From assembly GCA_030622125.1 (NCBI GenBank), contig JAUXGM010000011.1:1-25910 (forward strand): a stretch of 25,910 nucleotides of DNA. Reading direction: 5' to 3'. The translations under genes were made by a program, and so were the position numbers. The notes beneath the pieces are model-generated. The model saw only the letters and a program-made list of their open reading frames with translations, ran no database searches and was not told the DNA's origin. Below are positions 12-25,830 of the stretch, in pieces (positions within the stretch are counted from its first letter, which is position 1; each line of letters starts with the position of its first letter). This stretch comes from a bacterium (GTDB lineage: Bacteria; AUK180).

Positions 12-120
12 TTCGGTAATGTCCCTCTTTTTATGGGGTACGGAGTTTTATATTTTTTTTCTTTACTCATTAACCCATCAACTCATTCACTCATACACTC
101 ATTTCCCTTATTTCCTTATT
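12..120 (+). repeat. Dispersed element copy A (right part only)
   Basis: The stretch 'ggtaatgtccctcttttt' (15-32) followed by an AT-rich tail and an octamer array matches two copies near the other end of the window (25286 onward and 25447 onward). In those copies the tgtccc is the right arm of a palindrome. Here the left arm would lie before base 1, so this copy is cut by the window edge. No gene is associated with it. Confidence 0.7.
65..120 (+). repeat. Degenerate 8-bp tandem array (7 units)
   Basis: Seven consecutive octamers can be read: actcatta, acccatca, actcattc, actcatac, actcattt, cccttatt, tccttatt. The same period and related units occur at 25339-25378 and, inverted, at 25774-25797, always after the same AT-rich tail. 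It is therefore part of the dispersed element and not a chance low-complexity run. Confidence 0.7.
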
Positions 121-123
121 CAT

Positions 124-25210: not shown

Positions 25211-25256
25211 GTTTTTTTTTGTTTTGGTGTATTTTCTTTTAACCTTAGAAATGAAT

Positions 25257-25378
25257 CCGGGACACATCTCAACTTTAAAATATCCAAAGTTGAGGTAATG
25301 TCCCTCTTTTATGGCTTTTCGGAATTTAATATTGTTTTACTTATTTTCTTATTAACTTATTGCCTTATTGCCTTGTCT
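25257..25378 (+). repeat. Dispersed palindrome-tail-octamer element, copy B
   Basis: Left arm gggacacatctcaacttt (25259-25276) and right arm aaagttgaggtaatgtccc (25286-25304) form a long near-perfect hairpin. An AT-rich tail follows (tcttttatgg...tttaatattgtttt), then five octamers (25339-25378: acttattt, tcttatta, acttattg, ccttattg, ccttgtct). This is the most complete copy. Together with copy C it fills most of the 363-base gene-free stretch between ompA and tRNA-Gln (25164-25526); the remainder is the ompA promoter and T-rich spacer. Confidence 0.8.
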
Positions 25379-25418
25379 ATACTGTTCTCGGGTGGTCTAT
25401 CGTTATCTAAGGAAGAGT

Positions 25419-25515
25419 CCGGGACACATCTCAACAAAAAAAATCAGTTTGATGAGGTATGTCCCTCTTTTATGGGGGTATTGAGTTTAATATTGTTTTA
25501 CTTAATTTCCTGACT
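25419..25515 (+). repeat. Dispersed element, copy C
   Basis: Left arm gggacacatctcaac (25421-25435) and right arm gtttgatgaggtatgtccc (25447-25465) again bracket a short AT loop. The tail tcttttatggg...tttaatattgttttactta matches copy B. It lies in direct orientation 162 bases after copy B, so the two form a tandem pair. The octamer part is almost absent; the copy ends shortly before the 3' end of tRNA-Gln. Confidence 0.75.
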
Positions 25516-25773: not shown

Positions 25774-25830
25774 GGATAAGGCAATAAGGGAATAAGTAAA
25801 ATAATATTAAACTCCAAAAACAAAAGAACA
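25774..25830 (-). repeat. Dispersed element, inverted tail copy D
   Basis: Read on the minus strand this gives ...ggagtttaatattattttac followed by octamers acttattc, ccttattg, ccttatcc. It matches the tail and array of copy B in reverse orientation. The palindromic arms are absent or badly degraded (gctaatgttctttt in place of ggtaatgtccctctttt). It follows tRNA-Thr directly. Bases 25831-25910 show nothing I can name. Confidence 0.65.

Follow-up and report, generated by a model that had tools for sequence, protein, structure and literature searches.

Repeat copies in the analysed contig

The window, i.e. the whole 25,910-nucleotide stretch of DNA analysed here, is an entire contig (C104) of the draft genome of an uncultured bacterium (G000; 2,079,618 bases in 192 contigs). 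It carries four copies, A to D, of a repeated element (Table 1), whose neighbours are a tRNA-Gln gene on the reverse strand and a tRNA-Thr gene on the forward strand. An initial annotation had proposed that all four copies share one unit, a hairpin with arms GGGACA and TGTCCC followed by a conserved tail, and that B and C stand in tandem. The hairpin and the tail hold up, and both B and C are complete, but they do not form a simple tandem because they are separated by octad repeats and by the terminal 50 nt of M1, a dispersed module of 71 bp. Copy A, described as partial, does contain its 3′ half (TGTCCC and the tail) and lacks the 5′ arm, since the contig begins inside its short tandem repeats. 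Copy D, described as an inverted tail copy, consists of a tail with adjoining octads and has no hairpin. The real unit is larger than first described and includes GARTCC, tandem repeats, an optional 71-bp module and, in one class of copies, a nested hairpin.

Table 1. Parts of the repeat copies in the window
Feature	Position	Strand	Remark
Copy A, end of heptad-repeat interior (TGTCAATTG) and TTTTCGGTAA	1..19	+	part of a composite copy
Copy A, 3′ arm TGTCCC (20-25) and conserved tail (26-55)	20..55	+	
Short tandem repeats behind copy A	61..121	+	ACTCATTC / TTATTTCC type
Copy B, 5′ flank, head type 2 (GTTTTGGTGTATTTTCTTTTAACCTTAGAAATGAATCC)	25221..25258	+	second occurrence at C34:8893
Hairpin B, GGGACACATCTCAACTTT-loop-AAAGTTGAGGTAATGTCCC	25259..25304	+	conserved C.A mismatch/bulge after GGGACA
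Tail B, TCTTTTATGGCTTTTCGGAATTTAATATTG	25305..25334	+	conserved
Octad tandem repeats	25335..25370	+	imperfect, CTTATTTT / CTTATTGC type
Final 50 nt of 71-bp module M1 (...CTTGTCTATACTGTTCTCGGGTGGTCTATCGTTATCTAAGGAAGAGTCC)	25371..25420	+	
Hairpin C, GGGACACATCTCAACAAAAAAAATCAGTTTGATGAGGTATGTCCC	25421..25465	+	
Tail C, TCTTTTATGGGGGTATTGAGTTTAATATTG	25466..25495	+	conserved
Copy D, octad tandem repeats	25774..25801	-	directly behind the tRNA-Thr 3′ end
Copy D, tail (TTTTTGGAGTTTAATATTA)	25802..25820	-	without hairpin

Copy number and gene context

The earlier expectation of further copies is borne out genome-wide, with roughly 90–110 found in G000 against 0–6 control matches. The 3′ junction TGTCCCTCTTTTATGG has 90 matches, compared to 6 for the reversed pattern (up to 2 mismatches), and the 5′ junction TCCGGGACACANYTC has 109, compared to 0 for its control (up to 1 mismatch). 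The retrieved loci comprise 122 3′ ends and 149 5′ ends, the latter collected with a looser pattern that also matches the 71-bp modules. Short-hairpin pairings give 72 complete copies (71 of 45–47 nt and one of 67 nt). These counts are probably low, as many copies lie near contig ends and the draft seems to break at the repeats. The family has more than 100 members, short modular DNA repeats dispersed through the intergenic DNA of G000. An exact pattern scan of the GTDB genome contigs, a set from which G000 itself may be absent, returned 0 matches, and an Rfam scan found the tRNAs alone, with no family matching the element.

Only 3 of 121 3′ junctions fall inside a called ORF, and one of these (C47:8719) has no other element part nearby and looks like a chance match. 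Being short palindromes in high copy number outside genes, the repeats are REPs in the general sense of the term. On the tail side, the neighbouring gene mostly runs in the opposite orientation, with its 3′ end facing the tail (69 versus 24, p = 3e-6), while genes on the other, upstream side show no orientation bias (21 versus 17, with 80 unresolved). The copies in the window agree with this genome-wide orientation: tail C points at the 3′ end of tRNA-Gln and tail D at that of tRNA-Thr.

Modular architecture

The element has the layout GARTCC-(GGGACAC...GTGTCCC-type hairpin)-TCTTTTATGG-n-CGGAGTTTAATATTG. A unit is made up of one or more optional M1 modules, hairpin A, a 30-nt tail TCTTTTRTGG-n-CGGAGTTTAATATTG and imperfect 7–8-nt tandem repeats, in that order, with GARTCC forming the 5′ flank of hairpin A. 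M1 (71 bp) starts with GGGACACAGTCATTCTATTTCC and ends with GAAGARTCC. It has at least 65 matches dispersed in G000 and none in the four further genomes of the bacterial family. In contig C74, M1 starts recur at exact 71-bp steps (fragment positions 1106, 1177, 1248, 1319, 1390 and 1461), giving an array of up to six units in which the last start (1461) is hairpin A itself. M1 was also considered as a structured RNA and rejected, as it has no consensus fold.

In one composite class, the arms of hairpin A are 121–135 nt apart and a second hairpin with its own tail sits inside the loop. This nested hairpin defines subfamily B (CTTGGGACRCAC...GTCCC, tail GCCTGTTTTCGGAGTTTGTATTTG, heptads CATTGTCAATTGTC; 65 exact starts). 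Composite copies overall have arms 120–250 nt apart and still keep their ends. The tail is common to hairpin types A and B and to further head types, and across copies the outer ends are constant while the interiors vary.

Several imperfect heptad and octad tandem types lie directly behind the tails (CTAACCT, ATTGTCA, TTATTTCC, ACTCATTC and CTCAACT). They occur at the three tandem-repeat sites of Table 1 and at most repeat loci, and sister genera have comparable ones. The same intergenic mosaics also hold unrelated hairpin families (CACCCCGCACC..GGTGCGGGG, CAACGGGTAGACACAC..GTCTACCCCTAC, GGGCACGGCATGCCGTGCCC and CTTTTTCGCTTTGCGAAAAGGGGTGCCCC; loci L012, L019, L022, L006, L044, L049 and others).

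Hairpin structure

The short hairpin is a 17-pair stem with a 9-nt loop and a stem energy of about -18 to -25 kcal/mol, and it keeps a C.A mismatch or bulge directly after GGGACA. The claim that loops differ while the arms pair is upheld by 29 distinct short hairpins of 45–47 nt, the aligned arms of which stay paired. Standard pairs occupy 97.2% of their stem pair cells, compared to a shuffled mean of 89.4% (0 of 500 shuffles reach 97.2%, a figure that is not a probability because the hairpin sequences are related to each other) and to 33–47% in slid controls. Changes on both sides of the stem occur at three inner pairs, which flip from TTT/AAA to AAA/TTT (A-T for T-A) in nine sequences; this swapped triplet may represent one or two events. 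At pair 6 of nested subfamily B, 23 copies have G-C, 16 have A-T, 3 have G-T and 1 has A-C, i.e. an A-T/G-C swap that is Watson-Crick in 39 of 43 copies. In a single locus (L044; C132, reverse strand, hairpin start at ~12690), the interior of hairpin A is 20 nt longer and holds a second stem (CTGATGCGTAAACGCATCAG), possibly as an insertion in the loop.

Related repeats in other genomes

The tail and the GGGACA/TGTCCC frame are present in three other genomes of the bacterial family (G001, G002 and G004). The hairpins of G002 read TGATTCGGGACACATCTCTACGAGATATGTCCTTCTTTTGTGG, and those of G001 and G004 read TTATCCGGGACAGTCGTGCCAATAAATTGTCGACGGCATGTCCCTCTTTTCTTGTGTTACGG or close variants. Arms of the form GGGACACA[CT]CTC are confined to G000 and G002, which represent two genera. 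The hairpin arms are of two kinds, GGGACACAYCTC in G000 and G002 versus GGGACAGTCG, with a related tail, in G001 and G004. G001 and G004 have two hairpin sites in common (L172/L174 and L077/L175). At another G001 site (L173), the hairpin is absent from the orthologous G004 locus (L179), which is not a clean empty site because a decayed tail-like stretch remains there. As this one orthologous-site comparison yielded no clean empty site, mobility is something that we infer.

A candidate transposase

The initial annotation had suggested REP sequences moved by a RAYT, noting that the window contains no transposase gene. A search with PF01797 found four Y1 transposase genes in G000. Three of them have terminal inverted repeats (TIRs) beginning with GGGGACGGTGGT, and the ends of these elements (GGGGACGGTGG) do not match the hairpin arm. 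The fourth gene (C172:3630-4469) encodes a 280-residue protein that scores 26.1 bits against PF01797 (cut-off 23). Residues 207–260 match the DnaA-type helix-turn-helix (HTH) family PF08299 (Bac_DnaA_C) at a sub-threshold 24.9 bits (E 2e-5, cut-off 31.5), and a match to NF047646 (REP_Tyr_transpos) is likewise under its cut-off. TIRYTs combine a Y1 HUH domain with a C-terminal domain of DnaA-type or HTH_23/28; the protein has this composition, with a DnaA-type domain that scores below threshold.

The left end of the C172 gene is TTAGGGACACACCTCGC (opening sequence TTAGGGACACACCTCGCAATTC). It has 12 consecutive bases in common with the hairpin arm (GGGACACACCTC) and diverges beyond them. The initial annotation had proposed to look for a Y1 gene flanked by the same hairpin; this gene has the 12 arm bases at its left end, and neither the full hairpin nor the tail flanks it. 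The right end has diverged or decayed (TTAGGGACGCCCCTCGC / TTAGGGACGCCCCTCGCTTTTC), which makes present activity of this transposase doubtful. The G002 orthologue, 66% identical and located between the same two genes, carries TTAGGGACACACCTCGC at both ends (TTAGGGACACACCTCGCYTTTTTCGCCTTT). RAYTs, unlike ordinary insertion sequences, are typically inherited vertically at a single locus. The ends of the C172 and G002 genes (AGGGACAC) are one base off GGGGWSAS, the motif of TIRYT terminal inverted repeats, and those of the other three G000 genes read GGGGACGG.

With a profile built from the C172 and G002 proteins, these two reach 595 and 589 bits, and the other Y1 proteins of seven genomes of the class reach at most 165 bits. 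C172-type transposases are found only in G000 and G002, the two genera with GGGACACAYCTC arms; G001 and G004 lack them, and no transposase with GGGACAGTCG ends was found in either. In the GTDB genome contigs, a scan for the C172 transposase returned one MAG record, AUK180, which is apparently the sister genus itself.

Y1 transposase genes from five genomes were also compared at their ends (L031, L032, L033 and L096-L119). At the ends of TIR-type RAYT genes, a GGGACGGT-like head precedes an element-specific word that is present twice as a direct repeat, spaced 9 bp, e.g. TTGCAAAAG TTGCAAAA. Identity at lag 9 is 67%, compared to 36% in shuffled sequences (0 of 2000 shuffles). The word differs between elements and is the same at both ends of one element, as if it were read by the C-terminal HTH.

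How the family may have spread

The most probable reading, in which we have moderate confidence, is that the repeats are non-autonomous REP-like elements spread by a TIR-type RAYT (Y1/HUH), for which the C172 protein is the best candidate. The enzyme would bind a folded single strand via the GGGACAC arm, cut beside the hairpin, and insert hairpin and tail close to gene 3′ ends. If this happened repeatedly at the same ends, nested and tandem composites would result. These recognition, cleavage and insertion steps are inferred from the shared ends and from TnpAREP biochemistry. The family can be explained without any host function.

Spread by recombination, replication slippage, gene conversion between intergenic mosaics, or another transposase absent from the draft is a less likely alternative. 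The arm shared with the C172 gene would then be a coincidence, or the transposase would once have landed in a repeat. The conserved unit does exceed any transposase end (M1 with no conserved fold, tails, heptads), the exact 71-bp arrays resemble products of slippage or unequal recombination, and G001 and G004 have related hairpins without a matching transposase. Against this alternative, the orthologue has the 12 identical nt at each of its ends, the identity is restricted to the two genera that have that arm, and the other three Y1 elements of G000 show no such match.

A rather speculative proposal, which is doubtful as it stands, treats the fixed outer ends (GARTCC-GGGACACA ... TGTCCC-TCTTTTATGG) as a cassette. 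The HUH transposase would swap or insert what lies between them, be it a short loop, a sister hairpin, a 71-bp module or a heptad array; heptads would be made at the ends, and the family would grow by modular assembly and not by copying of a unit.

It is improbable that the hairpin and TCTTTT are a functional intrinsic terminator or mRNA 3′-end stabiliser that was amplified and kept for ending transcripts. The tail-side gene is usually on the opposite strand, so the T-run is not placed to terminate the commonest neighbour, whose transcript reaches the hairpin with no T-run following. No orientation bias is seen for upstream genes, and composites part the arms while keeping the ends, even though nearly all copies have a stable stem followed by TCTTTTAT and the elements adjoin gene 3′ ends. 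A structured non-coding RNA or riboswitch-like element could account for the compensatory stem changes but is highly improbable given that no Rfam family matches, other hairpins and heptads freely take the place of the interior, no consensus fold exists for the 71-bp module, and copies lie at the 3′ sides of unrelated genes.

Comparison with known systems

Spread by a RAYT is in keeping with RAYT-type genes that are flanked by TIRs and accompanied by dispersed TIR families (PMC3733652, Di Nocera 2013; PMC6006769). The element best fits this TIR-repeat/TIRYT kind (TIRtrons; TnpAREP subclass 2.1) (PMC3733652, PMC6006769). Similar to TIRYTs, the candidate is a Y1 transposase of ~280 residues with a C-terminal DnaA-type HTH and ends beginning with (G)GGGAC, and similar to TIR repeats, end-like palindromes form dispersed families in the same genome. 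Published TIR families contain single, dimeric or grouped TIR copies (PMC3733652, PMC6006769). Here, by contrast, only 12 nt are common with the transposase end, the TIRs are not the whole hairpin, and the unit also has a tail, the 71-bp module, heptads and nested sister hairpins.

The first assignment to REPs moved by a RAYT finds genuine, if indirect, support and survives as REP-like and RAYT-linked; the family is a modular composite and not a single REP. As extragenic palindromes in high copy number, the repeats resemble GTAG REPs and REPINs with their RAYTs (PMC2817692, PMC3116915), and their mosaics of several hairpin types resemble BIMEs. The conserved stem mismatch has a counterpart in the E. 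coli REP, the bulge of which is needed by E. coli TnpAREP (PMC8266576). Unlike GTAG REPs, they have a longer stem, a fixed 3′ tail and a TIR-type transposase, and the unpaired GTAG tag is absent at the ends of complete copies (flanks GARTCC and TCTTTT(A/G)TGG), so that this identity was rejected. CGTC REPs, which likewise have TGTC or CGTC at the hairpin end, carry it as an unpaired tag on an 8–9-bp stem with a 4–5-nt loop (PMC3733652). This candidate was also rejected, since TGTC is here paired with GACA in the longer stem and the loop is larger.

Pneumococcal BOX elements are likewise modular, with constant modules at the ends and a middle module whose copy number varies. The comparison with BOX elements (PMC3049150) is an analogy of layout, and the presumed mobiliser is different. 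The intergenic heptad direct repeats TAACTGA of Beggiatoaceae, Cyanobacteria and Bacteroidetes (PMC4679880) are, like those here, short tandem heptads between genes, but G000 has many different degenerate 7–8-mers that typically adjoin hairpin-tail units.

With this family, the range of TIR-type RAYT repeats reaches a lineage that is represented here by draft genomes only. From genus to genus, the hairpin arm tracks the ends of the transposase resident there, so that an old question, which enzyme mobilises palindromes without a tag, becomes testable with one purified protein and a few oligonucleotides. No description of nested cassette-like composites or of an iterated 71-bp module was found in the two accounts of TIR repeats and TIRYTs considered here (PMC3733652, PMC6006769). 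The kind of element is known; what is unusual in this family is its nested, cassette-like build, which shows the extent to which such repeats can grow into nested composites.
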